Program-made: the position numbers and the translations under genes
Source of the DNA: Medicago truncatula
Taxonomy: Eukaryota; Streptophyta; Magnoliopsida; Fabales; Fabaceae
Direction: 5' to 3'
DNA: 64,000 nt
Assembly (NCBI RefSeq): GCF_003473485.1
Contig: NC_053048.1
Span: forward strand, 40,048,755 to 40,112,754
Notes under the pieces: model-generated
Told to the model about the DNA's origin: nothing
What the model saw: only the letters and a program-made list of their open reading frames with translations
The model's database searches: none
Shown: piece by piece, positions 33,410 through 61,514 of the stretch
Numbering within the stretch: position 1 is the first letter of the stretch
Layout of the letters: every line of letters begins with the position of its first letter

Positions 33410-34159
33410 AAAAGTGTGGTTTTATTTGAAGTCACATGAAATTAAGCCACTTAAATTAAGTCGCAGCTTAAATGTGCGATTTATTTTGGACATGACACAA
33501 CAAATGTGTGACTTCAATACAATCAAATAAAACTCAACTCGCAAAAAATGTCTTCTACTGTGAACAAAACGGTAAATAGTTATCACATTGTTAAATATAT
33601 TGTTTAATTAACATGTTTAATTTATATCCTCAATACTACAAGTTAATATCATTGGAGTAGCTTCGTGTAGTGATAAGGAAAAAAGGATAATTGTTTAGCA
33701 AAGCAACAGGAGGCAAGCAAGGTCATCAATTATAGGGGGCAAAGTTTGCTAAAGTGAATAAAGAACAAATTTACAACTACAAACATACAAAAAACAATGG
33801 TAAAATACTACATCCTAACTGGAAAAAAATAAGAGTGAGGTCAAAAAAAAGATACCATATCAAAGAGCTCAAATCCTATCAATGGTCTAACAAAAATGCA
33901 TATATTTTCAGTATAACATATTCCATAGAGTTAAAGTTGAATTTCAAACACAAGAAGAAAAGTTAGATTAGCAACAAATAATGTGCACAAGTTTAGAAAG
34001 CTAAATATAATGCTTCTTGATTACTTTCTTTAGGTAGCTCCATGCCTCAAATTTCAAGCCCAACAGATTGAACACTCTATAACCCTTGGGGATATGGCTT
34101 ATCATAAACTTCCTTAGGCATATCAGTCAGTGCCCTCTTCGTCTGTCGTGGCTTATCAG

Positions 34160-34174
34160 AAAATCCCTTGGACA
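34160..34174 (+). repeat. LINE target-site duplication, left copy
   Basis: The 15-bp string aaaatcccttggaca at 34160-34174 recurs at 36312-36326 directly after the LINE poly(A). Confidence 0.85.
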
Positions 34175-40228: not shown

Positions 40229-41629
40229 ATGGTGAGTGTCCAATCTCAATCCATTGTAATCCCTTCCAAACCAACTCCTAATCCAAAACTCTTCTCATTA
40301 TGTGAACAAATCAAGCTTCGCACTCATGCTCCTCTCCTCTATGTCTTCAAACCACATAATCACAAAAACACCTCAACTTTCCTTGAAACACTTAAAAAAT
40401 CCCTTAGCCAAGCTTTGGTTGCTTACTATCCACTAGCGGGAAGGTTGAGTTTGATCAAAGGTGGAAGATGGGAAATTCATTGTAATGCCAAAGGAGCACT
40501 TCTATTAGAAGCCAAATGTGAAGAATTAACCAATTTGAACCAATTGGGTGATTTTGTACCAACTAATTTGGTATCACAACTCATACCAAACATTAATTAC
40601 AATCTTCCCATTGAAGATATTCCCTTATTGGCAGTGCAACTTACAAGGTTCAATTGTGGCGGTTTTACATTAGGTGTTGCCTTATGTCGAGCCGCAACTG
40701 ATGGAACCGCAACCATGTGTTTCATGAACGCATGGGCTAAGTTGGCGCGTGGAGAGAATTTGGATCCAAGTGAGTTTCCGTGTCACGATCGAACTATGTT
40801 GAATTCACGCAAACTCACACATTCTTCATCCTTACATCGGCATCATCATGAGTTTGACACGCCTCCTATTCAGGTAGATCATGATTTGGGCAACACTAGA
40901 GAAGTGAGTGTTGCTATTGTGAAACTCACGCGAGAACAAGTTTCAATACTTAAGAAAAATGTTAACTCTCGTGTGAATTTTCAACCCACCTCCAAAGATG
41001 TCCCTAAGACAAAACCTTACTCAACTTTTGAGGTTATTGCAGGATATCTTTGGAGGTGTGTCAGCAAAGCACGTTGCATGGAAAATAATGACCAACCCAC
41101 AAGGTTGTCCACATTAGTTAATTGTAGAAACCGCTTAAAACCACCTCTTCCTAGTGGCTATGCCGGGAATGCAGCATTTCCAACAGTTACACCAATTCGC
41201 TCCTTTAATGATCTTACTTGCAAGCCTTTGGGTGATGCGGTTGAAGATGTTCATAAAGCACTTGAAAGAGTAACGGAGGAATATGTAATGTCAGCACTTG
41301 ATTACATAGATAGGGAGAAGGACATGGATTTATTGAGATATAATTTCCACTATCCAGCAAAGAGTGTGTGCAAGGGACAATACAAGGGAAATCCAAATAT
41401 TTTTGTTGTAAGTTGGATGAATTTTTCGTATAAGGATGCAGATTTTGGGTTGGGAGAACCTGTTTATTTTGGTCCAGGGTACATGGATTCTGAAGGGAAG
41501 GCATTTGTTATGAATAATAATGGTGGTGATATTGTGGTGGCGATTTCTTTGGAGGTATCTTGTATGGATAACTTCAGAAAAATTTTCTATGATGATATCA
41601 AAGAGGTGTTTTGTACTTCCAAATTGTGA
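40229..41629 (+). CDS. BAHD acyltransferase A1, catalytic His replaced by Arg
   Basis: 466 residues, single exon, ATG to TGA, a normal BAHD length. BAHD enzymes transfer acyl groups from acyl-CoA to amines or alcohols in the cytosol. The closest wording I recognise is the spermidine/shikimate hydroxycinnamoyl-transferase group. Landmarks: YYPLAGRL (66-73), NYNLPIEDIPLLAVQLT (123-139), RAATDG (154-159) where the family has HxxxDG, TLVNCRNRLKPPLP, GNAAFPTVT, EYVMSALDYI, NPNIFVVSW, DFGLGEP (405-411; usually DFGWG), YMDSEGKAFVM. Arg154 is encoded by CGA at 40688-40690; Asp158 is retained. Copy A2 at 54067 differs at about 30 positions by eye. The intact frame suggests selection despite the altered active site. 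Substrate unknown. Confidence 0.9.
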   Translation: MVSVQSQSIVIPSKPTPNPKLFSLCEQIKLRTHAPLLYVFKPHNHKNTSTFLETLKKSLSQALVAYYPLAGRLSLIKGGRWEIHCNAKGALLLEAKCEELTNLNQLGDFVPTNLVSQLIPNINYNLPIEDIPLLAVQLTRFNCGGFTLGVALCRAATDGTATMCFMNAWAKLARGENLDPSEFPCHDRTMLNSRKLTHSSSLHRHHHEFDTPPIQVDHDLGNTREVSVAIVKLTREQVSILKKNVNSRVNFQPTSKDVPKTKPYSTFEVIAGYLWRCVSKARCMENNDQPTRLSTLVNCRNRLKPPLPSGYAGNAAFPTVTPIRSFNDLTCKPLGDAVEDVHKALERVTEEYVMSALDYIDREKDMDLLRYNFHYPAKSVCKGQYKGNPNIFVVSWMNFSYKDADFGLGEPVYFGPGYMDSEGKAFVMNNNGGDIVVAISLEVSCMDNFRKIFYDDIKEVFCTSKL

Positions 41630-42447
41630 TGGATGTTGTCCCAATATTTGACAATGAAATTTTCTTGCATGTACATGCATTTTTTGGTGCTTGTACTAGA
41701 GTTGATTTTCCAAAATGGAGTTGGTCAAATGTAGTGTGATTCAATTGGGAAAGAGTCGTGCAATTGCTTTGACTATTTCTGTTATATATAATTAAGTTTG
41801 AAATTAAGTTTTGATTTGAAAATTAAGAACTAAGGTTATTCAAATCTGTTGAAACTTGAAAGGTGGCTTAATATTTCTGATACAGTGACGTGATGCACCA
41901 CGTTTTTCTTTTGTTTGCACCGCCATCTATTCATTGATATCTAAATGGGTTCCACCAATAACTATTTATTAATGTAAAACAATAAAATCAACTCAAACAA
42001 TGATTATTTTAATGAAAAGTTGTGTGGAATCCACTTAAGATTGAGGTCTTAAGTGAGATCTTAGATCTTCGTAGATCCCCAATTTTTTTTTTCTTCCATA
42101 TTGTGGCTACCTATTAAGTACCGGATCTTAAAAGATAAAAACTCTAACCAATGTAGATGCTCTTAATAAATAAAATCACAACTTTTTAACAAGATAGGGA
42201 TGGATGAGGTGTAAAACAAGGACTTGTTATAAAGTCATTCATCTTAATACTATTCTCAAATACGTCTAATTACAAAGTTCTTATGCATTAATACCGGTGA
42301 TATGATTGCACATTATAAATAAATGACAGCGATTGCTAAAATACTTTTATATTTTCTCGACAAAAATATTCTTTATTTTTGTTTTTAATTGTAAAATCTC
42401 CATAATTTTAAGATGTAAATGCAATTAAATATTTACTGGTCTTATGT
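41630..42447. other. 3' flank of BAHD A1
   Basis: About 41630-41700 matches the 3' flank of the gene at 54067 in inverted orientation (the 'aaattttcttgcatg.acatgcat' region). Then AT-rich DNA without a gene. Confidence 0.5.
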
Positions 42448-42748
42448 GCAGTTTTTTTGGGTTATTGTTTTCTAGTAAAAAACTTAAAAAAATGCTTATC
42501 AGTGTTCCTGAACACACTTTAAAGATTTTAAATGATATAGTTTTATAATGTTTGTGTATTCAATACATTGTAAATTGTAGGTTTATTTTTTATAAATTAT
42601 TTCTAAATTTAAATTTTAAAAAAGTATTCAAGAGATACTCGTTAATAAGGAATACTCGATTCTTCAAATGAACTTTAACTTTAACTTTAGTTTTTTTTTT
42701 TTTTTAAAAGACTTTAAAATAGTTATTCATCAAAGTCTCACTTATTCA

Positions 42749-43068
42749 ATGACCAGAGTTAAACGAGGATCTATCGCTCGAAAACGGAGGACAAAAATGA
42801 GTTTATTTACATCAAGCTTTCGCGGAGCTCATTCAAAACTTATTCGAACTATTTCGCAACAGAAAATAAAAGCTTTGGTTTCGGCTCATCGGGATAGAGA
42901 TAGGAAAAAAAGGGATTTTCGCAGTTTGTGGATCAGTCGAATAAACGCAATAATTGCCCAAAATAAAAACAAAGTATACTGTATTTATAGTAAATTAATT
43001 TATAATCTGTACAAGAGGTCAATTGCTTCTTAATCGTAAAATAGTTGCACAAATAGCTATATTAAAAG
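42749..43068 (+). pseudogene. rpl20: Plastid-derived rpl20 fragment (NUPT)
   Basis: The ATG at 42749 begins [20 protein letters not shown], then [20 protein letters not shown], then [20 protein letters not shown]: chloroplast ribosomal protein L20. Near 43016 the frame shifts; the natural continuation [18 protein letters not shown] is readable in another frame to about 43068, where nuclear flank resumes. The 3' end of the gene is missing. There is no transit-peptide exon, and the sequence sits inside a duplicated nuclear flank that lacks it in the partner copy (55760). It is therefore a nuclear insertion of plastid DNA and not a functional transfer. Length about 370 bp (42700-43068). Confidence 0.85.
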
Positions 43069-43228
43069 GGAATGTCCGGCTTATCAATTTATCCTTTAAA
43101 TATTAAAATTTTGATATATTAAACTTTTTTTTTTGTCACAAGTTAAACAATAAATAATATTAAAAGAGCAATAATAGTTTGGTTGGTTTTGAAAAGAACA
43201 ATGATAGTAACATATGAAAGTCTTAGTG

Positions 43229-43312
43229 AGTTTAACTCAGTTGGTATGAACAGTGCATAAAATTTTATATGTAAGGTCCGGAATTCAAATCTCGGTAAAA
43301 AAAAAAGAAACA
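43229..43312 (+). mobile_element. tRNA-derived SINE
   Basis: A box-like 'gtttaactcagttgg' followed ~45 bp later by a weak B box 'ggaattcaaatctc', then an A-run. The same design is found inverted at 57836-57912. Typical legume SINE; diverged. Confidence 0.5.
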
Positions 43313-43782
43313 TGAAAATGAGAGGAAAAAAAGGTTAACTATGTTCGGTTATTAATATTTAAAAGAATATTAATTTAAGAAAATGGCAAATACAAAGCTA
43401 TAATTGATTTTTGCAATTAGCAAAGTCTTCGATTTGGATTTCACCTCTTGGACAAATTACGACAGTGTGGTACATTTTCCTCACACACGCATGTGAGTGA
43501 GAGTGTCATCTTTGGGGATTGAAAAAACATAGCATGCATCGTATCGTTTGGCTTTGTTCGTAAGTTTGGAAAGTAGGGGAAGAAAGAATTTAGAGGAGAG
43601 AAATATACGAGAAATTTTTCATATTTTTTAAAAGAAAATTTTGTAAGTGAGCGATAAATTAATGTTTATGATTATATTTTTAATTTGAAAAATACTATGG
43701 TAATATATATTAAATTTGAAGAATTTTTATAAACACTTATAAATCTCTACAAGTTAAACTAACCCATCTAAATTATTATCGA

Positions 43783-43858
43783 AGATAATCGAACCTGAGA
43801 TCTCGAAGAGGAGCATACTCCAGATCTCACGTCAGTACGACTAGGCCACCCGAGTGGG
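43783..43858 (-). mobile_element. tRNA-derived SINE fragment
   Basis: On the minus strand 'gggtggcctagtcg' (A-box region) is followed by 'gatctcaggttcgattatc' (B box GGTTCGA). Resembles widespread plant tRNA-derived SINEs. Confidence 0.5.
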
Positions 43859-46319
43859 TTAGAAGAGAGTACAAAGTTGAATTGTTAAGTGATAGATACA
43901 TGTACAAAGTTGAATTATTAAGTGATGGGTGGCATTTACCCTACACAAGTGTAAAACTTGTGTAGCATGCACAAATTCAAAAGTTACCTGCAGCTATGGG
44001 TTTGTAACCTGCTATTAATAAATACAATAAATTAATCAAACATTTGATTAATGTAAAATATTGGTTTTTTTGTTTTTGCTGGATGCACCCCCTCCTAACT
44101 CAAACACTAGCGGCAGTAAAACATAACATATTAGAAATTTGGTGCTCATGTTCAGATCTTCATTTTTCAGCTTTAAACACACATGTATCTCCATAAAATT
44201 CTTTCTAGAAACATCATACTCCATAACTCTCAAAGCAAAATAAATTTTAGATCTAGATTTGAATCAAACTCATATTCACGAAATCAATCCCATACCTTTA
44301 TCCTTTTTGTCACCTTAAACAAACCTGTTTTAATTTCTTGTAAATTTTAATTTTTTTCTCTTTTGATTTTGCCATTTTTCCTATGCGCTAATTAACCAAG
44401 GATTTATGGAAAATAAAATCTAGGACATGATTGGTTTATATACATTTTGTTGCTGATAGGTTTGAATAAAATCATTAATGTGTTTATTTTGTTACCCTTT
44501 TCCATCAATCAATGGGTTTTACTAATTCATGTGGAAGGGTGTCAAAAAGCATCAGCTTTATTTTCAGATTTGGATACTCGAGTAATGCATTTTCATCCTT
44601 TTTTAAATAATTTGAGCTTTTGGATAATGGTTTAAGGTACAACTATAATCATATTTTATGTTTTATTATAAGATCTTTATGAAAGTGTGTTGTTCAGTAT
44701 ATTGGTTTTACTCGAATTTATTTTTGTGTTTTTTGTTGGAAGAGTTTAGTTTCTACCTTTTTTGAATTCTGAAAAAATTTGAAGATTGATGAAGATAATG
44801 GAAGTTAAAGAAGAAGAGGGAAGAAGACGATGAATAGTAGAAAAAGAATGGTTGGTGGAGGGTTTTTATTTTTTATTTGTTTGAGTTTTGATGATGAATG
44901 TGATGAATTTTTTTGGATTTATTGATGAAAATGATGAATGTTGCTGGGTTTGATAGTGAACATGAAGATGAGATGAATATTGCCCAGATCCAATACTATA
45001 GTTACAAAAAAAAAACTGAATAAAATATTGACATTTAATAATTATGTGGGGTCACGTTTACTGTTCATAATATCTCAGCAGCAGGTCACAATAAGTTTCA
45101 GGTAACAGATCTCAACCGTTGATATATAATAATATTATATCAATGGTCCAAATAAATTTTCAACAACACATTATTTAACTTGTGTATGATACACAACTCT
45201 TTTGCTTGGGTACCGTAAACGCCACCGATGGATACATGTACAAAGTTGAATTGGTAAAAAAGAGGGGCCACAAAAGAGCATCTAAGATCCAACAAGAAAA
45301 TAAAACTAAACAGTTGTTCCAACCTTTCTAGACATGCAGCAACCAAAAAGATCATAAGAAAGCAACGTAACATCATTTTTAAATCTCCTCAAAAAGGAAA
45401 TGAAAAAACTTCATTCTTAAATAAATCAATGAGTACATCCTTTAATAACTATTATAAGCAAAAATCTATCTTTAAAATTTATTTAATAAATGATATAAAT
45501 GATCTATATATTAAACTACATATATTATTTATTAGATTACATACATAAACATATGCATCGCTAACTTTGTTCAGCGATGCACACATATTAATTTGTCTGT
45601 CATCCACACGTAATTCGCTGCTTTGGTATTTGATACAACACTATTAAGGAAAGAAAAGAAAAGAAAATAAAGCAGGGTTCAAATCTTGGCACATGAATAA
45701 AGTAAAATATAAACTAAAATCTGAAAAATATTCTTGATATCCATTTGACTAGAAACCAGTACCAATGTTTGTGTGGTCAAACCACAAATTTAATTTATTT
45801 AAGCATAATCACACAAATAAAAAATAGTTAAAAAATAAATAATAACTTTTTTTATTATTAGTAAAATAATTAAATGGTGTGTGTTTATGTATGTTTTTTT
45901 TTTACAAGAGTGTGTTTACGTATGCTTAAATAATTTGGATTTGTAATTTAACCACAAGAATTATCCAAAAACCATATACTTTTGGATGGAACAAATTACT
46001 TTTGGATCCGAATTCATTCATATTTTTTAGGTCCTTTGTCTTCATCAATTAGGGTACACGCTAAAGATTTAAAAAAGGAATTAAAATATAAATTTTGTGT
46101 TGAAATTTTTTCATTACATGAAAACTTTGTCTTAGACTACTGGAATTGTGTGAAACTTTGTGTGAAGCTTTTTATCCTTGAAAAAAAAATACTTGTTTCA
46201 TAATTGCGCATATCTAGCAAATTCTATTGTTGAATTGTTTTTCATATTGTTGTATCTTGCATGGCTTCTTCAAATTTCAGTATATCCGATTCTAATAGGA
46301 GATTTCACGTTAAATTTTT
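43859..46319. other. Intergenic; diverged segmental-duplication sequence
   Basis: Parts match 56060-56290 in order: 'gagagtacaaagttgaatt', 'agtgatagatac', 'aacaagaaaataaaacta', 'aaatctcctcaaaaa', 'aaagaaaataaagca.agttcaaatct'. Between the matches about 1.4 kb is unique here. No gene recognised. Confidence 0.55.
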
Positions 46320-47393
46320 CTTCAATTCGTTCTTAGATTTCAATTCTAATCGCTCCTTAACCACTTGATGGATATAATCAGTTGACTTATATATGAAAAG
46401 CGTAATTATGATAATTAGTTTCAGTACTGCAAAAATTTAGCTAAAAATGAAGTTAATATTGTTCTTAAAAGTTATTAGATGAAACTTGTATATAGTAGTA
46501 TGCTATTTTGGATATAATTTGTTAATCTTGGGAGTTGTATTTTTTTGTTCTTCCAGCTCTTAAGAAGAAGAAACGTTTACCTTTTGCTTATAGTTAGTCC
46601 ATAACATTATACTAATGTTTGACTAAACCAAACACCAGTTTAGAAGGTACAAACGTGGAACCAAATATAGGGTTAGCGTGTTTCGCTAATTAGATCAATG
46701 CTTAATCTAATTAGTGCTGAACACTAAGAAACTGAGATTAACATTGACTCGTAAAAATCAGTAATGATATGCGGAAAAAAGAACTGATTTGATTATAATC
46801 ACATGTGTCAATGCCATGCCGGACACTAATGTATTACATTTGCTCTAAAATGTCAGTGCTACATAGCTGATGAATGTTCTCTTTGCTAGAACTCTATATT
46901 TTCCTTCTTTTTTATGTGTTGGATGAAGCTTAGACTATAAAAAACAAAGAGTCCTGCTCATACCCAAACCAATCAGACTTGTGGCAACTAATGAAGTTGT
47001 GTACCTTTTACCAGGGACTGTGTTCCTTTTATAGCAGAGGTTTTGTGAGACTGATGCATATAAAACGGTTAGAGGCGTTGTGTGCATCTCAGTGTGATTT
47101 GTGGAACACTGCCTGATTTGATCAGGGGATCCGCTGGCGTGTGTTGCCGGAGTACCGTAGTGCTTTGACTTCTTAGGCCGAAGATCCTTACGAAATCGGC
47201 TTAGCACAATCCAAAACATATATGCTAATCAATTTTATTACATGAAAAGAAACAACACAAGAAGCACAGGATGTGTTCTACAAGTGCACCAAAGCACAAT
47301 CAACAATGCCAAATGAACAAAATCCTCTAAAGAAAAACTAATAGAACATACAAAACATTACCAAACAAAAATTAAACAGCCCCTAATCACAAC
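46320..47393 (+). repeat. Segmental duplication, copy 1 (partner 58850-60045)
   Basis: Long collinear similarity to 58850-60045, beginning 'ttcaattcgttcttaga' and running through 'accaaacaccagtttagaaggtac', 'gatatgcggaaaaaagaactg' and 'gttagaggcgttgtgtgcatc'. It is the 3' flank of the BAHD B gene/pseudogene pair, so the whole ~3-kb unit was duplicated in tandem. Confidence 0.85.
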
Positions 47394-48239
47394 TGTTGTA
47401 TTTGGCTTCAAATTTATGGTTTTGAGAAGTAGAGAAATCGTGACATGATTTCATCAACGTGTCACGATTTTTTAGGCAGTGAGCATGGTTTTTTAGGGTG
47501 CTCAATTGTGTCACGATTTTGGAAAAACGTGACACGATTTTCAACTTGCTGGGCACATTTTCAAGATAAGGTTGGTCGTACCTTGGGTCGTACGCACCAA
47601 TCGTGTCACGATTTGGACAATTGTGACACGATTTTGACAGTTGAAGACTGCTATATTAGTGTTTCTTTGCAGATTTTGAAGGAGAGCTTTGAGAGATAGA
47701 AACTTGGATTACAAAGGAGGTAACTTTAGGGTTGAGTGTTTTTGTAGTAAGGTTCTCTTGGGTTGAGAAACATTGTAAACATCTTGGGTAGTGAGATTTC
47801 ACCATTGGAAGGATCAAAAAGCTTCCCTTTGTGTTTTCTCTTAGGAATCATTGAGAGTGTGCGTGATACAAAAATGAGTAGAAATTAGGTCTTGTTCTTT
47901 TGTAAGCTTATAAGCTAATTTCTTGTAACTCTTTTGTAACACTTTCATCTTAGTGGATTGGAGGGCTGCTCTCTCCCCCAGATTAGGTCATATTAGATCG
48001 AACTGGGTCAACAATCTTGGTGTGTTTGTTCCTTTCTTTCATTGCTTATCTTTATTGATTTGATTATGCTTATGGTGTTGCTCTACACTTAGATTTAGGT
48101 TTGTTTTTGTTGTTGTTGTTTGGATACACTTTATCTATTGATTACCACTTCCTTTGGTCCACACATCTTGGTTATTCATTGGTGTGATTTTGTCCGAATT
48201 CACAAGAGCAATAAACCTTTATTTCCCTCAAAAAAAAAA
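47394..48239 (+). mobile_element. LTR-like insertion with repeated GTGTCACGATTTT
   Basis: Present in copy 1 and absent from the partner (60050). It starts TGTTGTATTTGG and holds at least five GTG(T/A)CACGATTT motifs between 47455 and 47640. The remainder ('ggattggagggctgctctctcc', 'cgaactgggtcaacaatcttgg') reads like the R-U5 part of a copia LTR. No ORF. The right end is near an A-run at 48230-48242 and is not resolved; a solo LTR is the best guess. Confidence 0.45.
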
Positions 48240-48450
48240 AATATTGAACCTTTATTTAAGGTTTTTTCTAGATTACCTTTGAAGAATGGTGGGTAATTTA
48301 CCCACCAACCAATGAAAATGAGCAATTTGTTGGTGGGGTCAAGATAGTTCATGATACCACTTAAAAATATGCTTATGCGGCTAATGTGTATTGATTGAGG
48401 TAAATTACCCACCATTCTTTCATGGGTACCCTAGTTGTCACCTTTATTTA
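48240..48450. mobile_element. MITE with terminal inverted repeats and direct flanking repeat
   Basis: Arms 'gaatggtgggtaattta' (about 48283) and inverted 'taaattacccaccattc' (about 48401) enclose ~100 bp. A direct repeat 'acctttatttaa' flanks the element (about 48248 and 48440), and the partner locus at 60060 has a single similar site, so it is a plausible target duplication of Mutator-like size. Confidence 0.6.
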
Positions 48451-48497
48451 AACAGAAGGGTTATCAAAATCCAAGGTTTTGACACTATCATCAGTCA

Positions 48498-49868
48498 TCA
48501 CAATTTGAAACTAGTGATCATCTCCATATCCTCATAAAACAACTTCTTCAAAGCATCAATATGAAAAGGTTGCAAACAAACACTTATAACAAAACCATCA
48601 CCATTACCTTCATCAATAACAAAAGCCTTACCAATACTATCAGAATTAACAAACCCGGGAGCCAAACAATCAGGTTTCCCCCATCCATAATAAGTCTCAT
48701 AAAAAGGAAAATTAGTCCAACTATAAACGCAAAAATTCGGGTCACCACCAAATTGTCCATTTCTTCTAGCGAAGTTGTAAAACTTGTCCCTTAACCAATT
48801 CATATCCTTCTGATTTTCAACATAATCAAGAACAGATCTTACATATTCATTGTTCACCTTCTCAATTGCTTCCCTCACTTTCCCAACCACATAACATAAT
48901 GGCTTGTTCACAACATCATCAAATGAACAATTTTGTGTCACCGTACGTAGGAAATGTTGCATATCCAAAATAGTTCTTGGGAAGAGGTGGATTCAACCTG
49001 TTTCTACAATTAACCAAAGTTGTTAACCTTGTTGGTTGGTTCCAATTTCCTTCAACACGCACTTTACAAACACACCTCCATATGTAACCACTAATAACCT
49101 CAAAACTAGTATTACCTCGTACCTTGTTTTGGTTTTCATTATTGTTGTTTGCTTTGTTCTTGATCGTATTTCAACTTGGTGTTTGGTGAGTTTCAACATG
49201 GTAGTGGCAAAGAGTGGTGTAATGGTGTTTTACTCACATGTGTCGAGTTATAACTACTAATTTCCCAAAGAGGTGGTGGAGAAAACTCATGATGATGAAA
49301 ACGTGGTGGTAAATGAAGGATTTTTGAATCTAACAAAGTTTTATCAAGAAAATGGTATCAAACTTGAATCTAAAGTCTTTCTAATTTTAGTAAGTTTTGC
49401 CCATGAGTTGATGAAATTAGCAGCTGAGGCCCCATCAAGTACGGCACGACACATAGCAAGACCAAGAGTGAGGGACCCACATGAAAACTTGGTGAATTGG
49501 ACAGCCAACAAAGGAACATCTTCAATCGGAACATCATAGTTAATTTTTGGAACAAGTTTTTTGACAACATGTGTGGAATCAAAACTACCTAAATCTTTGA
49601 AAGTAACATCACACGTGGCTTCTAAGAAGTATGTACTTTATTGTTGCAATGAAGTTGTAGTAAGTGGTTTTGTGGCTAAGGGATAGGAGTGAGTGTTTTG
49701 GAAAGAGAGGTTAGATTAATGTGTGATGAATGATTTTGACTTGTAAAATAGATAAAGCTGGTATTCATGATTAGGGAGCTTGATTTGTTCGCAGAGGGAA
49801 AGAGAGAGTGTGGTGCTTGGTGTTGTCTCGGAAGGTTTTACAGTGTACGAACAGTCCATGCTAACCAT
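48498..49868 (-). pseudogene. BAHD acyltransferase B pseudogene (paralogue of 60117)
   Basis: The ATG at 49868 opens MVSMDCSYTVKPSETT, homologous to the start of the intact gene at 61514, and the copy runs to a TGA at 48498. The last 150 residues are open (VGKVREAIEKVNNEYVRSVL .. ISVCLQPFHIDALKKLFYED). A TACG duplication near 48943-48950 shifts the frame at the FPTVTQ segment, and further frame breaks occur in the middle and 5' parts. The active-site region still reads MCRAVLDG, with Arg (CGT) at the usual His, and the DFGWG box has become YYGWG. It is inactive as a protein. Confidence 0.88.
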
Positions 49869-51540
49869 TTTTTCTTCTTAATTTCCAGTGAATGTGGTTG
49901 TTGTTGATAGCATTGTTGTCAAAATTTCGACTTAAATCTTAAAATCTTAGATAGTTAAATTATGGTGCAACTTCATCCCCCATCACACAAAGGTGGGTAA
50001 GGTTATCCATGTGATGTGTCCCCATACATAATCATTCAAGTGTCCCATACTAGTGAGATGATGGTTAATGTATCTAGGGAAACTAGCAGTGCAGTTAGAG
50101 TTTGCACAATACTTTTTGATAGAAGTAAATTAAATTTATGTAACTACAAATGCACCCTCAAGAAATTAACATGTAATTCTTTACCTAAGTCTCTTTACAT
50201 TCCCTCTTCCTCTTCTTCCAGTTTCAAGAATTCCAACTTTTATGAAAGAGTAGTGTTGCATGAATGAGTGCTATAAAATGGCAGAAAACGTTGCTGAAAC
50301 ATGACCCTCAATTTGACAAGTTCATGTATGTGGGTCGACCCACAAGAGGTTGAAGAAGACATCGTTCACAAAACCCTCTCGCAAACTGAGGAGATAGAAA
50401 TACTTGCATAGAAGCGTACCTAACACCTCATTTTTGCACACATCCAATAAAAAGATTACAACACACTAAATAAATGAATAAAAATTAATTAAAAAAAAAG
50501 TTATTAAAATTTGAAAAACAAGTCTGTTCATTTTTTTTTTTCCTTCATGGAATCTTAATATGAATATGGAAGTAGCATGATCAACGGCGAAACTAGCAAT
50601 ATTTCCATAAGGTGACCACATATAAAGATTTTTTTTTTTCTACTTAAACTAATCTAATCAGGCAGACAAAAAAAACTCACAATAACTATTACTTATATAA
50701 AATATTCTAATAAAATATACATACTTGATTAAACAAGAACGAATTGTACCAAAAATGCGGCAATAAAAAATTGTACCAACAAAGTGACGGTAGAATAGCG
50801 GATTGTACCAAAAAAGCTACAACAATATAAATAAAAACTAATAGTAGCTATTTATGAAAATTGAACTCGGCGACCCTTGAAAGACTCGATTCATCTATAA
50901 TTGCATATGAGTTTTTTTTTTTTTGAACAAGCCAAAATGAAATATGATATTAAAACAAAAGTGAATCACCGCGCACAAGACGGCAATAGATGAAACACCC
51001 ATCAAAAGTCACAAAAACACCCATACATGAAAGAGGTTGTCGGATAGTCAAAAGCAAAAGTAATCAAATTTGCCTTCAACCACAAAAAATAAGTTGGCTA
51101 AATTGACTTGCAATATCCTTTTCAATGTAAATAACCTAACTATTTGCAAGAAAATTCATCTCTCTCTTGTTTGTAGTCTTTTGTGTTGTGCAATTGTGGT
51201 GTGAAAACTGAAAAGTTAAAAAAAGTGTATCCACTTATTAATTGCATGGTGGGTTGTGGGTGTGAGCGTCTTATTTATTTCTTAAATAAACCAATGATTA
51301 TTATTATTTATCATTTAACTTTTTAGGTGTTAATCTTCCAGTTCCTATACTACGGGATCAAATGATTCAAAGTTTAACCGAAAATTAAATAAGGATGAAA
51401 AAAAAATATTCCACTTAAAATAAAATTTGGGGTAGTTTTTTTTTTTGAAAGAAACTTGGGGTAGTTAAATATATATTATTAGGGGTAGCTAAATATAAAT
51501 ATATACCTACCCGCTAAAAAAAAATTGGGGTAGCCCTCCC
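49869..51540. other. Intergenic, no gene recognised
   Basis: The first ~100 bp is the 5' flank of the BAHD B pseudogene. The rest is AT-rich with small unrecognised open stretches (50016-50267). Confidence 0.45.
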
Positions 51541-52960
51541 TTATGAAAGCATCTTCCCCTGAGCATGACGCGAAGCCACCCTAGCAAACTTATGAGCAAC
51601 TTCGTTGGCTTGTCTCTGAATAAACCTAATACTAGAGGTTGCTAAATCAGAAGCTAACAAAGGTTTACAGTCATTGGTCATTTCACCAAGCTTTTGGAAT
51701 CAAGCTCAAAATCCACAATACCCAACTGCAGATCATGCACCCAATACATTGTTGATAATAAACCTAAAGTCTCATCGAAATCCACATCAAGGAGCGGAGT
51801 CATCCATTTGTTTTTAGCTAACACACAACGACCTTCATCATCTCGAATACACATACCAATGCCGACTCGATTTAGAGCATGATAAAAAAAAAGCATCTAC
51901 ATTACATTTGAACCTGTCGGGACTTGGTTTAAGCCACTACAAATTGCCTTGGGTAATGGAATGTTGAGACGTATGATGACGAATATTTTAGGCATTCTTC
52001 CAGATAGTAAGAAGGGAATATGCACGATCACATATGGCTTGACTTGTTTCAATGACATTGTTTTAAACGTTCTTATTCCTATGCTTCCAAATACTCCATA
52101 GGGTAACACCAAAAACTTGCTTTTGTTGCTGATACAAATGTTATATGATAGAAAACACATTAGTCGGAAAGCTTGCACCAGAATCAAAGACAACCATCAA
52201 AGGGCTAGATAACATGAAGCGCTGCCAACAAAGCACGCTTTTACTGCACATAAAAAACAAATGAGTACCATATTCCCCAAAGTTGTCACACACCGCACAC
52301 TGAACGCCTTTTGATTGCAATCGGATTCTCGTAGGCAAACAATTGTGGCAAGCTCTCCACAAGAAATTCTTTACCTTTAGTGGCAATTTTAAACTCCAAA
52401 CACAATTTTAATTACCTGGAACACGATGTTGTAAAACTGCCACATCATGATTCAGAATATCCTGATAAGGACTCTTAACTGTATAAACACCGTCCTTCTT
52501 AAGCTTCCATAGGCACATCATGAGTCACCGAAGGGAGCAACATAGTATTAAAAATGCTTCTGGTTGTAATATTGTCAAAAAATTCATTAATTAGCTCCAT
52601 ATTCCATTGCTTCTTAGGTGTTATCAAACAAATCTGAAACAGTGATATATGTCCACTTCAAGTGTTGATGAGTAGTTGGTAAAGTGCGCGCAACATTATT
52701 AAGCCATACGTTCTCTCGTACCTATACTCCATTGAAAACCAAGGTGAATCACATCTTTCACACTCCAAATACTACGCCAACCATAGCTATGATTATAGCT
52801 TGTACAAGCTCCAAAGTAATCACCTTGAGGAAAGTATTTAACTTTGAGTAAATGAGTGATTATAGATTCTGGAGTAGAAACCAACTTCCAAATCCGCTTG
52901 CCAACCATCGCCATATTAAATGCTTTAAGGCCCTTAAAACCCATTCCACCAAACATCTTA
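51541..52960 (-). mobile_element. Decayed LINE fragment (RT C-terminus, zinc ribbon, RNase H)
   Basis: On the minus strand, in order from 52960: MFGGMGFKGLKAFNMAMVGK with WKLVSTPESIITHLLKVKY (RT C-terminal part), MPLKVKNFLWRACHNCLPTR with CAVCDNFGEYGTHLFFMCS (zf-RVT), and GIGMCIRDDEGRCVLAKNKW with LGIVDFELDSKSLVK (RNase-H-like). They lie in several frames with stops between. No YADD box, so it is 5' truncated and dead. Confidence 0.8.
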
Positions 52961-54066
52961 GGAACGGAAAGTCATTTACCTAAGGTATTTAGCTATATTT
53001 TTTGTTATTATAAAGTTGAACAGTGGTTTGATCCTTAAAATTATGGTTTGAGTCATTTACTCTATATCCTAATTCCTTTGTTTTAAGTTTAATTTTTTAA
53101 TTAATAAATTATTTTATATAATGCATGGAAAACCAAAATATCTTAGCTCATCATTTCGTTCATTTTTTATATTGATTTTGTTAACCAAGTTTTTTTTTGT
53201 CTAAGAAACAAATATTTTCTACCAAATACAATTGCATAAGTTTTGTAAGGCTAGTTTCATTTGAATAAATGTTAAAAAAATATCTTAAGTTTCTAGTGGC
53301 CTTTGTTTTGGGTGAAAAAGAGTGAGTTGGATTACTATTAGAAGGAAGATAAAAGAAAAGACAAATAAAGATGGAGAGAGAAGAGGGTTATAACAAAGAA
53401 AAAGGATACTTTTTCCAGTTTTATTTTATTTATGTTTTTCACAAGCAGTTTTCTTTTCAATAAACATATTTTTACATTTTTTAGTTTAATTTTTTTTAAT
53501 TTTTTATTTTATATTTGTACAATCTGTAAATATTTGAATTGAAACCAATTTATAAAAGAAACATAGCAAGTTTATACATTGTGCTCAGGGACGACCCTAG
53601 GTTAGGCCATTGTAGGTCATGCCCTCACAAAGTTTTGGGTAAAAAAAATTAATACTATATACTCTATAATATAGGACCACACATAAATATAATTTGATTA
53701 ATTAAACAAATCACTTACACTTAAAAAAAAAAAACTCAAACTACAAATCCTTTTAATCTCGTGATTGTTTAATTATTTATATAGAATAATATTTTTATTG
53801 ATATTGAAAATGAGAAAATTATTAAACAGTGTTGGAATATATCAAACAAAACCAGGGAGCTAGTTATATATATAACAAAAATAATCAAAGCAACTGCACA
53901 ACTTTCTTTCCCAACCGAATCACTGCATTAGACCAACATCAACCTCATTTGGAACCCAAATTAATATATTTCTTCTCTGATATGGAAAACAAACTCTTGT
54001 ACAAGCACCGGAAAAATGCATGTGCATGCAAGAAAATTTCGGTGTCAAATATTTGGACTACGCCCA
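52961..54066. other. Intergenic; 3' flank of BAHD A2 at its right end
   Basis: AT-rich. The interval 53960-54066 matches the BAHD A1 3' flank in inverted orientation. No gene seen. Confidence 0.5.
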
Positions 54067-55467
54067 TCACAATTTGGAAGTAGAAAACACCTCTTTGATA
54101 TCATCATAGAAAAATTTCCTCAATTTATCCATACAAGATGCCTCCAAAGAAATCGCCACCACAATATCACCACCATTATTATTCATAATAAATGCCTTCC
54201 CTTCAGAATCCATGTACCCTGGCCCAAAATAAACAGGTGCTCCTAACCCAAAATCTGCATCCTTATACGAAAAATTCATCCAACTTACAACAAAAAGATT
54301 TGGGTTTCCCTTGTATTGTCCCTTGCACACACTCTTTGCTGGATAGTGGAAATTATATCTCAACAAATCCATGTCCTTCTCCCTATCTATGTGATCAAGT
54401 GCTGACATTACATATTCCTCCGTTACTCTTTCAAGTGCTTTATGAACATCTTCAACCGCATCATCCAAAGGCTTGCGAATAAGATCATTAAAGGAGCGAA
54501 TTGGTGTAATTGTTGGAAATGCTGCATTCCCAGCATAACCACTAATAAGAGGTGGTTTTAAGCGGTTTCTACAATTAACTAATGTGGACAACCTTGTGGG
54601 TTGGTCACTATTTCCCATGCAACGTGCTTTGCTGACACACCTCCAAAGATATCCTGCAATAACCTCAAAAGTTGAGTAAGGTTTTGTCCTAGGGACATCT
54701 TTGGAGGTGGGTTGAAAACTCATGCGAGAGTTAACATTTTTCTTAAGTATTGAAACTTGTTCTTGTGTGAGTTTTAAAATAGCAACACTCACTTCTCTAG
54801 TGTTGCCCACATCACGACCTACCTGAATAGGAGGCATGTCAAACTCATGATGATGTCGATGTAAGGATGGAGAATGTATGAGTTTGTATGAATTCAACAC
54901 GGTTCGATCGTGACACGGAAATTCACTTGAATCCAAATTCTCTCCACGCGCCAACTTAGCCCACGCGTTCATGAAACACATGGTTGCGGTTCCATCAGTT
55001 GCGGCTCGACATAAGGCAACACCTAATGTAAAACCGCCACAATTGAACCTTGTAAGTTGCACTGCCAATAAGGGAATATCTTCAATGGGAAGATTGTAAT
55101 TAATGTTTGGTATGAGTTGTGATACCAAATTAGTTGGTACAAAATCACCCAATTGGTTCAAATTGGTTAATTCTTCACATTTGGCTTCTAATAGAAGTGC
55201 TCCTTTGGCATTACAATGAATTTCCCATCTTCCACCTTTGATCAAACTCAACCTTCCCGCTAGTGGATAGTAAGTAACCAAAGCTTGGCTAAGGGATTTT
55301 TTAAGTGTTTCAAGGAAAGTTGAGGTGTTTTTGTGATTATGTGGTTTGAAGACATAGAGGAGAGGAGCATGAGTGCGAAGCTTGATTTGTTCACATAATG
55401 AGAAGAGTTTTGGATTAGGAGTTGGTTTGGAAGGGATTACAATGGATTGAGATTGGACACTCACCAT
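54067..55467 (-). CDS. BAHD acyltransferase A2, inverted duplicate of the gene at 40229
   Basis: 466 residues, single exon, ATG at 55467, TGA at 54067-54069. It differs from A1 at about 30 residues counted by eye (for example A/T at 65, P/S at 180, E/A at 410), so roughly 93% identical, with no indel. It keeps Arg154-Ala-Ala-Thr-Asp158 instead of HxxxD and DFGLG instead of DFGWG. The substitutions are mostly conservative or in loops, and the frame is intact, which suggests both copies were retained as proteins. The upstream ~90 bp is nearly identical to that of A1, so core-promoter control should be similar. Acyl-CoA-dependent transferase activity is family knowledge; with Arg in the base position it is uncertain here. 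Confidence 0.9.
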   Translation of the reverse strand: MVSVQSQSIVIPSKPTPNPKLFSLCEQIKLRTHAPLLYVFKPHNHKNTSTFLETLKKSLSQALVTYYPLAGRLSLIKGGRWEIHCNAKGALLLEAKCEELTNLNQLGDFVPTNLVSQLIPNINYNLPIEDIPLLAVQLTRFNCGGFTLGVALCRAATDGTATMCFMNAWAKLARGENLDSSEFPCHDRTVLNSYKLIHSPSLHRHHHEFDMPPIQVGRDVGNTREVSVAILKLTQEQVSILKKNVNSRMSFQPTSKDVPRTKPYSTFEVIAGYLWRCVSKARCMGNSDQPTRLSTLVNCRNRLKPPLISGYAGNAAFPTITPIRSFNDLIRKPLDDAVEDVHKALERVTEEYVMSALDHIDREKDMDLLRYNFHYPAKSVCKGQYKGNPNLFVVSWMNFSYKDADFGLGAPVYFGPGYMDSEGKAFIMNNNGGDIVVAISLEASCMDKLRKFFYDDIKEVFSTSKL

Positions 55468-56761
55468 GTTTCTTGCTTTCTTGAGAGTTATCCACTTTGT
55501 CTTTGTAGCCTTTTAAAGAGGCTAAATGGTTTCTTGTTGATGTATGTATAACAACGTAATTTGTTGATGTCATGTATAGCAACGTAAGCAATTAGGTGTA
55601 ATCCTGTCCTTTAGTAAAAATTATTTTAGAAAGTTCTTTTACTTGGGTTATTATTTTCTAGTAAAAAACTTAATTTATAATTTCGTTTTATTTTAAAGTT
55701 ATGAAAACCTTAAGGAGGTTCTACACATAAAAAGATTCTTCAAATAAACTTTAACTTGGTGGGTTAGGGTTGTCAGACTTGTCAATTTATCTTTTAAAAA
55801 TTAAAATTTTAATATATTTAAAAAAAAATGTTATAAGTTAAACAAATGCTCTAAAGACATTTGTTAGCATTTCTCATATTTAAAAGATTTTTTTTTTTTT
55901 TGAAGGGAATCATATTTAAAAGATTATTAATTTAAGATTATGACAAATACAAAACTATAATTGTTTTTTGCAACTAGCAAAGTCTTGGATTTGGATTTTA
56001 TTACCTCTTCACAAATTATGAACAGTGTGGTACTTTTCATGCCAAACTGGTCGAAACCTCACATGGAAGAGAGTACAAAGTTGAATTGCTAAGTGATAGA
56101 TACACGTACAATGTACATACATTTTTTTTTAGAGGAAGATACATGCACAGAGAATCTAAGATCAAACAACAACAAGAAAATAAAACTAAAAAGTTAGATA
56201 CATCATTTATAAATCTCCTCAAAAAAGAAGAAAGAAAACTTCATGATAAAAGAAAATAAAGCACAGTTCAAATCTTAAAGAAAATAAAGATAAAAGAAAG
56301 ACATGTTAAGCATTGCACAAATTAACTATTTTGGTACCACGTTTCAAACGTTAGTACCACTCTTTCTTTAACTTGTCTCAACAAAGTTGTCTCAAACTAT
56401 TTTGGTACCACAAATTAACTATTAAGTGATAGACATGACAACGTTTGATACATCTTAAAATCATTACCACTCTTTCTTTAATGAGTAGTGATATTTTTGA
56501 CAACTATTTTGGTATAATGTTTGAGACAACTTTGTTGTTTTACCTTCTCATTGATCAAAAACAATAGAAAGAAAAAAAGATAGAGAGAGATTGAAAACAT
56601 AGTGTGAGTATGAAAGAGAAAATTGTACAAAAGTTATACTAAAATTGTTGTACAAATATCATTTCTCTTCTTTAATTGAGTGAAACATGCACGTTTTTCG
56701 TCACTTTATGCGGATCCCATTTTCAAAGTGTGGGACACACATGTTTTCCTCAATTAAAAAG
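55468..56761. other. BAHD A2 upstream flank and spacer
   Basis: 55469-56040 is the flank shared with 39840-40228 (inverted) and 42448-43500 (direct). It carries a small internal duplication ('cgttg.tatacat.acatcaacaa' near 55536 and 55565). 56041-56290 matches 43860-45690 in pieces. No gene. Confidence 0.6.
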
Positions 56762-57455
56762 AAGGCTTAATACATGATTTGGTCTCTTAACTTATTTTTG
56801 GATTTTATTTTGGTCTCATAACTATAAATTGTCTCAATTTGGTCCATTATGTCTTTTGCCGTTACCTCTTTTGGTCCTATCCGTTACATTTTAACTATTT
56901 GATCTATTTTTCAAATAGAAACCGTTGGATCATGTAGGTTTATTGTAGCCTACGGTGAATGATTAATACCGATTTTTTGAAGAAGCAAAAAATATATAAA
57001 AAAAAAATATTACAAATTTTTATAAAGTCATTTTCAAAATGAAAAAAAAAACGAAATTTTTAAAGCTCAGATTTTTTATAAAAATTTGAAAAAAAAAAAT
57101 ATTTTCCAGAATTTTGTAAAAACCTTTTTTTTTTTGCGAAAAAAAATCTGACCTTTTTTAAAATTTTCATAAAAAAATAAATTTTTTCAATTTTTTTCAT
57201 TTTGAAAATGATTTTATAAAAAATCTTGAATATTATATTTTTTGCTTCAAAAAAATCAGATGTTAATCATTCACCATAGACTACAATAAACCTACATGAT
57301 CCAACAGTTTCTATTTAAAAAATAGATCAAACAGTTAAATGTAACAGATAAGACCAAAAAAGATAAAGACAAAAGATATAAGGGATCAAATTAAAACATT
57401 CTATAATTAGAGGACTAAAATAAAATCCGAAAATAAATTAATGACCGGTTAACAC
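56762..57455. mobile_element. Large foldback element (~690 bp hairpin)
   Basis: The left arm (from 'ggcttaatacatgatttgg') and right arm are inverted copies along almost the whole length: 'aaccgttggatcatgtaggtt' against 'aacctacatgatccaacagt', and 'gaatgattaataccgatttt' against 'aaaatcagatgttaatcattc'. The centre is an A/T-run tract near 57100. It belongs to the same 'ggtcccttaactt' legume family as 11283-12210. No ORF. Confidence 0.8.
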
Positions 57456-57835
57456 TTTTCAAAACCAGATATACTTGTATCGGGAATAGATACAAAAGGA
57501 CATCGGGAAGGAAAAATTTCCTTGAATGTCAATCCTTTAAACTATGAAGTCATCATGTTTTTATAGCCTTGTAGGTTCTTTGGCTTCATCTATTAGGCAC
57601 CTCTGTCCGTAATTACTAATTAGAAGACATTTTTTGAGATTTTTTTTTTTTTTTTCTCTTTTTATAAGATTTTTAGTTATTTCTAATTATATTAATTATT
57701 TCTTTATTAACGTAACTTTATTTATTTCACATATTTTTCTTCAATCAACAATAAATACTATGTTGAAAATATAAACTAACTCTCTCTTAAATGATTTAAT
57801 TGTAAAAACAATAGTAATTATAAACAATTTTTTTT
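57456..57835. other. Intergenic, AT-rich
   Basis: No gene or clear repeat boundary seen. Confidence 0.4.
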
Positions 57836-57912
57836 GGTGGTATCAAGGGTTTGAACCCTCAACCTTGCATTATGCATTGTCCTTGCCAACTGTGTTAAAC
57901 TCATAGAGACAT
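57836..57912 (-). mobile_element. tRNA-derived SINE
   Basis: Minus strand: 'gagtttaacacagttggcaagg' (A box), then 'gagggttcaaaccc' (good B box) ~40 bp later. Same family as 43229-43312. Confidence 0.55.
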
Positions 57913-58849
57913 TATAAATAAATTTAATACTACAATCAACTTTCTTAGTTACCGAGGATTCTGAAGAAAAAAAAAATAATAAACTTTGTATTGAAAAAAT
58001 AATTTTAAAACTTTTATTTAAAAAAATTAAACTTGACATTGAATGCACAATTTTTAAAAATATATTTCTAAATTTAACTTCTTAACTTTTTTTTTTTTTT
58101 GACAAAATTTGACTTCTTAACTTATAAACTAATGATACAAATAGCATCTTCTTATTAATAGTTATAAAATTATTAAGTCAACCAGAGGGAGTATGTAATG
58201 TGATGCTCAACTCAAGCAAAAGATTTTATCATATATCATTTTAGAAAAAATATTATGTTTTTTTGTCAAGTAGTCTAGCGGCTAGAGAAATTCACCTTAA
58301 CAGTGAATAACTGTCGCAGATATTTTTTAAGTCGGTTCAACAGATCTTAAAGTGTCAGTGTGCAATTAACTACCATTGAAAAATGTTGAACGACAGTTAA
58401 TTGTCGCTGATATAAGAGAATGAGCAATTCCATAAGTGAGAAGAGTAATTTTTAAAGGGTTTGTCTAACATGTGCAATATTGCACATGTTAAGGTAACTA
58501 AAAGTAGCAAGTTTTTATTGAAACCAACAATTATTTAACAAAAAGTTATATATTTAATACAAAATGTTCAAGTTCCAATACAAAGTTACTATTTTAAATT
58601 TCTTAACATGTGCAAATTTGCACATGATAGAAAAACCCATTTTTAAATCACCAAGTGGAGAATTAAATCAATATCTAAACCATTAACGACTCATTTCATA
58701 TATGTAAATATGAAATTATTTTTCATATTAGGTAAATCTTTACAAGTTTGAGAGTCAAGTCTTGCAAATGAGTTTACTTCCAAACTATGTATTGTAAGAG
58801 ATTTCCAAGTTTCAGAATGTCCAATTCTAATATGAAATTTTACGTTAAA
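57913..58849. other. Intergenic
   Basis: AT-rich. A palindrome-like pair 'acatgtgcaatattgcacatgt' lies at about 58469-58490. A weak tRNA-like phrase 'gtagtctagcggctagag' near 58270 could be another SINE relic. No gene. Confidence 0.4.
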
Positions 58850-60045
58850 TTTTTCTTCAATTCGTTCTTAGACTTCAATTATAACCACTTGATGATATAA
58901 TCTGTTGACTTATATATGAAAAGCATAACTGTGATAATTAGTTTCACTACTGCAAAAATTAAGTTAAAAGGATGAAGTAAATATTGTTCTTAAAGAGTGA
59001 TTAGATGAAACTTGTATATAGTATGTGTGCTACTTTTTGGATATAATTTGTTGATCTTAGGAGTTGTTATTTTTTTTCCAGCTCTCAAGAAGAAATGTTT
59101 ACCTTTTGCTTATAGTTAGTCCATAAATGAAATAAAACATTATACTTATGTTTGACTAAACCAAACACCAGTTTAGAAGGTACAAACGTGGAACCAAATA
59201 TAGACTTAGCGTGTTTCACTAATTAGCTCGGTGCTTAATCTACTTAGTGCTCAACACAAAGAAACTATGAGATTAACATTGATTCGTAAAAACCAGTAAT
59301 GATATGCGGAAAAAAGAACTGATTTGATCATAAACGCATGCGTCAATGCCATGTCGGACACTAATGTGTTACATTTGCTCCAAGTGTCGGTGTTACATAG
59401 CCAATGAATGTTCTCTTTGCTAGAACTCTATTTTTCCTTTTTTTTTTTTTGAGGAACTCTATTTTCCTTTGTCTCCCTCTTTTTTGGTTAAACGTTTATT
59501 GAGATTGTATATGATGGTCTTAGCAAGTAATAAAAGAATGTTGGTGTTTTTTTAACTTGTTTTATGTGTTGGAGGTGGGAATGAATGAAGGTGAGGAAGA
59601 CTACAAGATAGAAAGAGTTCTACTCAAACCCAAACTAATCAGACTTGTGGTGTTGGATGAAGTTGTGTACCTTATACAAGGGACTGTGTTCCTTTTATAG
59701 CAGAGGTTAGTGAGACTGATGCATAAAACAGTTAGAGGCGTTGTGTGCATCTCAGTGTGATTTGTGGATCACTGCCTGATTTGATCACGGGATCTGCTGG
59801 CGTGTGTTGCCAGTTCTTAGTCCGAAGATCCATAAGGAATCGGCTTGGCACAATACAAAACATATGCTAACCAATTTTATTATATGAAAAGAAACAACAC
59901 AAGAAGCACAAGATGTGTTTTACAAGTGCACCAAAGCACAATCAGCACAGAAAGTTCAATGTCAAATGAACAAAATCCTCTAAAGAAAAATTAATACAGC
60001 ATGCAAAACATTCCCAAACAAAAAACTAAACAGCCCCCTAAATCT
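58850..60045 (+). repeat. Segmental duplication, copy 2 (partner 46320-47393)
   Basis: 3' flank of the intact BAHD B gene, collinear with the flank of the pseudogene at 48498. It lacks the LTR-like and MITE insertions found there, so those postdate the duplication. Confidence 0.85.
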
Positions 60046-60116
60046 AATCACAAAATTGAACCTTTATCTAACAGAAGGGTTATCAAAATCCAAGGTTTTG
60101 ACACTATCATCAGTCA

Positions 60117-61514
60117 TCACAATTTGGAACTAGTGATCATCTCCATATCCTCATAAAACAACTTCTTCAAGGCATCTATATGGAAAGGTTGCAAACAAAC
60201 ACTTACAACAAAACCATCACCATTAGCTTCATCAAGAATATAAGCCTTACCAATACCATCGGAATTAACAATACCAGGAACCATACAATCAGGTTTCCCC
60301 CACCCAAAATCGGACTCATTAAACGGAAAATTAGTCCAACCAACAACATACAAATTCGGTTCACCACCAAATTGTCCATTTCTTTTAGCAAAATTATAAA
60401 ACTTGTCCCTTAACAAATTCATATCTTTCTGATTTGCTACATAATCAAGAACTGATCTTACATACTCATCATTCACCTTTTTAACAGCTTCCCTCACTTT
60501 CCCAACCACAGAACAAAAAGGCTTGTTCACAACATCATCAAATGAACAAGTTTGTGTCACTGTAGGAAAAGTTGCATTCCCAAAATAATTCATAGGCAAA
60601 GGTGGATTCAACCTATTTCTACAATTAACCAAAGTTGTTAACCTTGTTGGTTGGTTCCAATTTCCTTCAAAACGCACTTTACTAACACACCTCCATAAGT
60701 AACCACTAATAACCTCAAAACTAGTATAACCTCGTACCTTGTTTTCATTGTTATTGGCTTTGTTCTTAAGTTTTTCAACTTGTTTTTTGGTGAATTTCAA
60801 CATGGTAGTGGCAAAGAGTGGGTTTTTACTCAAATGTGTTGAGTTATTACTACTATTTTCCCAAAGGGGTGGTGGAGAAAACTCATGATGATGAAAACGT
60901 GGTGGTAAATGAAGGATTTTTGAATCCAACAATGTTTTATCTAGAAATGGTATCAAACTTGAATCTAAACTCTCACCTTTGGCAAGTTTAGCCCATGAGC
61001 TAATGAAACTACCAGCAGAAGAACCATCAAGAACAGAACGACCCATAGAAAGACCAAGAGTGAGTGACCCACAAGGAAACTTGGTGAACTGAACAACCAA
61101 TAAAGGAAGATCTTCAACTGGAACATCATAGTTAATCTTTGGAACAAGTTTTTGGACAACATGTGTAGAATCAAAACTACCAAAATCTTTTAAAGTGATA
61201 TCACACGTGGCTTCTAAGAATTGAACACCTTTGTTGTTGCAATGAAGTTGTAGTAAGTGGTTTTGTGGTTTGATCCAGCTTAATCTACCTGCAAAGGGAT
61301 AGTAGTGAGTGAGTGTTTTGGAGAGAGAGGTTATGAGAATGTTTGTTGAAGAGATGAGTGATGAAGATGAATGGTTTTTGTTTGTGAAGAGGTAAAGTTG
61401 GTATCCATGATTAGGGAGCTTGAGTTGATCACAGAGGGAAAGAGAGAGTGTGGTGGTTGGTGTTTTCTCTGAAGGTGTTACTGTGTATGAACGGTAGATG
61501 TGGATGTTCACCAT
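60117..61514 (-). CDS. BAHD acyltransferase B, intact, Arg in place of catalytic His
   Basis: 465 residues, single exon, ATG at 61514, TGA at 60117-60119. Landmarks: YYPFAGRLSW (71-80), NYDVPVEDLPLLVVQFT (128-144), GRSVLDG (158-164) where HxxxDG is expected, LVNCRNRLNPPLP, FGNATFPTVT, EYVRSVLDYV, NLYVVGWTNFP, intact DFGWG (402-406). Arg159 (CGT) and Asp163 correspond to Arg154/Asp158 of the A genes. The A and B types are clearly paralogous but far more diverged from each other than the two A copies. The intact DFGWG box argues against simple decay. Likely cytosolic; substrate not predictable. Tandem relative of the pseudogene at 48498. Confidence 0.9.
   Translation of the reverse strand: MVNIHIYRSYTVTPSEKTPTTTLSLSLCDQLKLPNHGYQLYLFTNKNHSSSSLISSTNILITSLSKTLTHYYPFAGRLSWIKPQNHLLQLHCNNKGVQFLEATCDITLKDFGSFDSTHVVQKLVPKINYDVPVEDLPLLVVQFTKFPCGSLTLGLSMGRSVLDGSSAGSFISSWAKLAKGESLDSSLIPFLDKTLLDSKILHLPPRFHHHEFSPPPLWENSSNNSTHLSKNPLFATTMLKFTKKQVEKLKNKANNNENKVRGYTSFEVISGYLWRCVSKVRFEGNWNQPTRLTTLVNCRNRLNPPLPMNYFGNATFPTVTQTCSFDDVVNKPFCSVVGKVREAVKKVNDEYVRSVLDYVANQKDMNLLRDKFYNFAKRNGQFGGEPNLYVVGWTNFPFNESDFGWGKPDCMVPGIVNSDGIGKAYILDEANGDGFVVSVCLQPFHIDALKKLFYEDMEMITSSKL

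Follow-up and report, generated by a model that had tools for sequence, protein, structure and literature searches.

An arginine-bearing lineage of BAHD homologues in Medicago truncatula that has lost the catalytic histidine

A 64,000-nucleotide stretch of the Medicago truncatula genome (GCF_003473485.1, contig NC_053048.1, positions 40,048,755 to 40,112,754 of the forward strand; hereafter the window, whose own numbering we use) holds a cluster of BAHD-like genes: three intact open reading frames (ORFs), here named A1, A2 and B, and a broken copy of B, the B pseudogene. A1 (40229..41629, + strand) and A2 (54067..55467, − strand) each encode 466 amino acids and are 93% identical, while B (60117..61514, − strand) encodes 465. 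An earlier note on this DNA had proposed that Arg replaces the catalytic His in all four copies and that the three frames remain open. Both proposals are borne out. Each intact gene runs from ATG to stop in a single exon without introns, and when A1, A2 and B are aligned to SHT of Arabidopsis and to HCTs of plants, their Arg coincides with SHT His155 and with the catalytic His of HCT. The motif reads RAATDG in A1 (40688..40705, + strand; Arg154, codon CGA at 40688-40690) and A2 (54991..55008, − strand; Arg154, also CGA), RSVLDG in B (61023..61040, − strand; Arg159, CGT), and RAVLDG in the B pseudogene (48498..49868, − strand; CGT at 49446-49448). The intact proteins match the Pfam profile PF02458 at 298.2 (A1), 283.4 (A2) and 331.7 bits (B), against a cut-off of 22.7, and NCBIfam returned no match for A1 or B, the two proteins queried. 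Since RxxxD stands in 4/4 copies where BAHD acyltransferases have HxxxD, we regard A1, A2 and B, on sequence criteria, as BAHD homologues and do not class them as functional BAHD acyltransferases.

Among 120 BAHD-like loci of the same genome in which the motif could be read (L-numbers below refer to such loci), 116 carry His and 4 carry Arg, and all four Arg loci lie inside the window. These 120 came from three batches: 36 loci (31 His, 4 Arg and L051 without a motif), 69 loci that all have His, and 16 with His among 18 fetched. The survey is incomplete, leaving out L051 (a C-terminal piece), L148 and L154 (motif outside the fetched stretch) and several short weak matches; the published count for M. 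truncatula is 133 BAHDs (PMC11847488). The 116/120 His rules out general looseness of the motif across the family, and an assembly or annotation artefact is ruled out by the presence of Arg in four separate copies, two diverged types and two codons. The His-bearing loci include clade-V paralogues and loci with stops inside the match. One His paralogue, L008 (C4:3703114-3704439), has a single in-frame TGA dividing two otherwise open halves and may be a recent null copy. A BAHD-like fragment, L151 (C6:6486160-6486240), reads HVVTGG, with His present and the motif Asp replaced by Gly.

The B pseudogene aligns with B over 1345 bases at 88.1% nucleotide identity with 11 internal indels (13 gap events minus a trailing one beyond the stop and one at the alignment edge), 8/11 having a length not divisible by three; it retains no in-register stop codon once gaps are allowed for, and its matches from genome searches show many stops. 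Its 3′ flank (46271..47383) pairs, as two pieces at 84% and 87%, with the B 3′ flank (58806-60037), which shows a segmental duplication of B. A1 lies in one half of an inverted duplication (40051..41790, + strand) whose partner, 53867-55667, contains A2. In the A1/A2 alignment the coding sequence has 0 gaps in 1401 aligned bases and the flanks have 7 gaps in 330. Amino-acid differences between the two fall almost entirely after codon 179 (30/31, with 1/31 before codon 180), and the sequence immediately upstream of the start codon is almost the same; this distribution suggests that the 5′ part has recently undergone gene conversion.

Phylogenetic analysis places the Arg copies in one lineage beside the SHT and HCT groups. 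In a 19-row tree of SHT-, HCT- and related proteins (outgroup L025, L028 and L032), run with and without 17 motif columns, A1, A2, B and the B pseudogene form a single clade (100/99 without the motif columns, 100/100 with them). AtSHT groups with L001 and L002 (100/100), and the Arg clade falls outside that group; constraining B and the B pseudogene to SHT is rejected (p-AU of 0.0016). A 25-row tree with more distant outgroups, adding L004, L006, L019, L022, L024 and L029, recovers the A+B clade at 91/89 with motif columns. By parsimony one His-to-Arg change is enough, placed before the A/B split. Two parallel changes, or spread of Arg between the types by gene conversion within the cluster, would be the alternative: recent conversion does seem to have affected the 5′ part of A1 and A2, and the Arg codons differ (CGA in A, CGT in B). 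Still, A and B remain one clade without the motif columns, so that a single change suffices, and the residues flanking the motif differ between the types. We consider this alternative very improbable, and within this genome a single change before the A/B split is well supported as the simplest account.

The Arg clade is assigned to clade Vb by its grouping with SHT and HCT, both of which belong there according to PMC11847488. Because the SHT group contains both Arabidopsis and Medicago proteins, the Arg lineage branched off before the Arabidopsis–Medicago split. The A–B protein path is 1.03 compared to about 0.67 within SHT, and A–B synonymous divergence (dS) is about 2.6, near saturation. From this depth we infer that the Arg residue itself may be as old as the lineage; it would be younger if the clade evolves faster.

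To study selection we fitted a branch-class codon model with a script of our own, each fit from one starting point; a single nonsynonymous-to-synonymous ratio (omega) comes to 0.203. Separate classes gave 0.202 for Arg branches, 0.190 for His branches and 0.324 for the pseudogene, a fit better by 1.1 log units; the Arg lineage as a whole thus gives no indication of relaxation. Finer classes gave 0.076 for the Arg stem (P = 0.002), 0.155 for the A stem (P = 0.0005) and 0.214 for the B stem (P = 0.015), all below 1 on long, saturated branches. Pairwise, A and B have an omega of 0.158 (2dlnL, twice the log-likelihood difference, of 116.5 versus omega 1).

Structure prediction returned the two-domain BAHD fold, and the predicted fold, the coenzyme A (CoA)-contact residues and the active-site Trp are largely intact in the Arg clade. 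Contact residues named for AtSHT in PMC7838080, whose numbering we follow, were mapped onto A1, A2 and B by alignment. Glu265, Arg298 and Trp388 (the active-site Trp) are conserved. At position 246 all three replace the SHT Arg by Lys, which the other non-SHT rows of the comparison also have; position 262 (Thr in SHT) holds Ser or Thr, position 263 (Arg in SHT) holds Thr or Ser, and Thr390 is Asn in all four Arg copies. The spermidine contacts are lost: Asp314 is Thr, Cys292 is Leu, His411 is Met or Val, and Asp416 is Lys. Together with the tree, this loss leads us to reject A1, A2 and B as members of SHT. Where 11 His-type rows are invariant (63 columns, where filled), 44/63 columns are conserved in both A1 and B. 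In 20 columns, the His-to-Arg change among them, all four Arg copies have a common state that none of the His-type rows shares.

Within this genome, the sequences give good support to an old loss of the catalytic His in a BAHD lineage next to SHT and HCT, a loss that has long persisted. That selection has nonetheless maintained the proteins suggests for them a role other than standard acyl transfer. Several observations weigh against this reading. Dropping the motif columns from the 25-row tree with its distant outgroups leaves the A+B fork without resolution. The deep branches of the codon model are saturated, and the recent ones are at most marginally below 1, with 0.51 at the A tips (P = 0.049) and 0.21 at the B tip (P = 0.051). 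The A1/A2 pair, whose codon differences are 31 nonsynonymous against 13 synonymous, has an omega of 0.71 that is not distinguishable from 1 (2dlnL 1.0). The pseudogene branch is itself not different from 1 (0.32, P = 0.22), which indicates that recent branches carry little power. In the active site, position 387, Ser in AtSHT, is likewise Ser in A but Gly in B (B has GW where His-type clade-V rows have SW), and A1 and A2 carry DFGLG (in A1 41441..41455, + strand, residues 405-409) while B keeps DFGWG, a motif reported as variable across the family (PMC12299259). Thr314 and Lys246 also occur in His-bearing HCT-type rows and hence are not special to the clade. Finally, clade Vb of M. truncatula has already been surveyed with non-His sequences included (PMC11847488).

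A further possibility is that decay is under way: function would be gone and the cluster adrift, the B pseudogene and the A copies representing successive states of it. One copy is already a pseudogene, the A1/A2 ratio is compatible with neutrality and A has DFGLG. Against this, the Arg branches jointly are as constrained as the His branches, the A–B ratio is low, three frames are open with a gap-free A1/A2 coding alignment beside gapped flanks, and His persists in other BAHD-like loci whose matches contain stops, so that Arg is no usual mark of decay. Decay seems to us improbable overall. The A1/A2 amino-acid differences are biased toward less conserved columns (P = 0.038). The A copies may nowadays be weakening. 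The earlier note had further claimed that the Arg predates the A/B split, that it has been retained and that the other fold motifs are kept. The tree with the motif mapped onto it upholds the first claim; retention stands for the lineage, whose ratio resembles that of His paralogues, with the caution that the A1/A2 pair is not distinguishable from neutral at the amino-acid level; and the motif claim fits DFGWG in B, the Trp, most CoA contacts and the predicted fold, with DFGLG in A and GW for SW in B as departures.

Elsewhere in the window, three segments (56787-57441, 11575-12006 and 58445-58651) are palindromic, self-inverted at 72-76% identity, and look like foldback or miniature inverted-repeat transposable elements. 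ORF fragments at 34130-35287 resemble a non-long-terminal-repeat retrotransposon reverse transcriptase (by eye from the translations). A 242-amino-acid ORF at 17885-18613, with low-complexity repeats and many Lys, Glu and Asp residues, has an exostosin-like gene on one side (ORFs in 13268-16544) and a CHX antiporter-like gene on the other (ORFs in 21737-24684), both named by eye. Analyses of tandem repeats and of composition yielded nothing further.

What the Arg proteins do can be proposed only tentatively. The explanation that we favor, though we would give it slightly less than an even chance, is that A1, A2 and B run an altered reaction without a His base rather than classical acylation of a polyamine or alcohol. 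They would be the survivors of an old, separate BAHD-fold lineage that stands beside the SHT and HCT groups and that exchanged its general-base His for Arg, most simply once, before the A/B split. An acyl-CoA, probably hydroxycinnamoyl-CoA, would bind in the usual tunnel. The center would now be basic, with Arg in the place of His and a clade-specific Lys at SHT Asp416, and an anionic partner, for example a carboxylate, would face it, a step that draws on two residues. The reaction would most likely be independent of a His base, as in EPS1 and COSY.

One competing explanation is an ordinary CoA-dependent acyltransferase in which the His is dispensable, either because the acceptor is nucleophilic enough or because another base, or the Arg itself, acts. 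COSY H161A/Q variants remain active (PMC9898226), while His is essential by mutagenesis in several BAHDs (PMC5489795). The Arg clade retains the Trp and most CoA contacts, which favors such an enzyme, and has lost the spermidine residues, which does not. Arg is moreover a poor base near neutral pH, and we judge this explanation unlikely. Somewhat less unlikely, in our view, is a regulatory or binding pseudoenzyme that would bind acyl-CoA or a partner protein without catalysis, as CER2-LIKE/GL2 proteins do with the fatty-acid elongase. Those proteins belong to clade II, which the literature treats as a separate clade (in our 19-row and 25-row trees, built without clade II proteins, the Arg clade falls among the SHT- and HCT-type rows); the retained active-site Trp would be unnecessary for a pure scaffold, and GL2-LIKE depends on its motif (PMC11269236). 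We rank an altered reaction with acyl-CoA and an anionic partner above a binding pseudoenzyme, and that above acyl transfer without His.

A bolder possibility, which we hold to be doubtful, is that the Arg clade represents a widespread, unnoticed eudicot class predating the Arabidopsis–Medicago split, in which Arg and the nearby Lys recruit an anionic ligand beside the bound acyl-CoA for a reaction or CoA-sensing role new to the fold. Such a clade could escape notice because some family surveys drop sequences without HxxxD: one removed motif-less sequences (74 to 69 genes; PMC5033976), and another excluded loci without HXXXD or DFGWG (PMC3123328). A review and a family survey describe absolute conservation in BAHDs of the catalytic His or of the motif that holds it (PMC10585174, PMC3123328). 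We found no published account of Arg at the catalytic His position in titles and abstract openings, a search that had most subscription papers outside its coverage and is not proof of being unpublished. A His-less lineage under selection beside HCT and SHT would add to EPS1 and the CER2-LIKEs another example of the fold leaving its classical chemistry, and three intact single-exon genes in a genetic model plant, with an obvious R-to-H control, make it directly testable.

Known systems share individual features with the Arg clade and differ in others. In B. napus about 97.5% of BAHDs have HXXXD, the motif being missing in some members of clades IIa and IV (PMC12299259). The M. truncatula survey that retained non-His sequences lists 14 clade-Vb proteins, which may include A1, A2 and B, and one characterized BAHD carries Ser at the catalytic His position, so that His loss alone does not rule out acyl transfer (both PMC11847488). 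Arabidopsis SHT (PDB 6lpv) has His155 where the window proteins have Arg, has the spermidine-pocket residues Asp314, Cys292, His411 and Asp416 that the Arg clade lacks, and belongs to a separate clade. The legume HMT/HDT/HHHT enzymes of red clover and bean are clade-Vb users of hydroxycinnamoyl-CoA with carboxylate-bearing acceptors (PMC11847488); unlike the Arg clade, PvHHHT has its catalytic His150. CER2-LIKE and GLOSSY2 proteins share the BAHD fold, and several function without His (PMC5489795, PMC11269236): CER2-LIKE1 and -4 lack it, and CER2 His mutants are functional (PMC5489795). They stand apart in clade II according to the literature, have the elongase as partner and, in the Arabidopsis members described, lack the DFGWG that B has. 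EPS1 (isochorismoyl-glutamate pyruvoyl-glutamate lyase, PDB 6wao/6wcs), which lost His and Trp and turned into a lyase (PMC9898226), has Ser at the His site in our alignment. It lacks the active-site Trp that the Arg clade retains, so that only one of these two sites is substituted in the latter, and it is far closer to L068, a paralogue of another group (E = 3e-62), than to B (E = 3e-16). The coumarin synthase COSY (PDB 8dqo) is a BAHD in which His is not required (PMC9898226).
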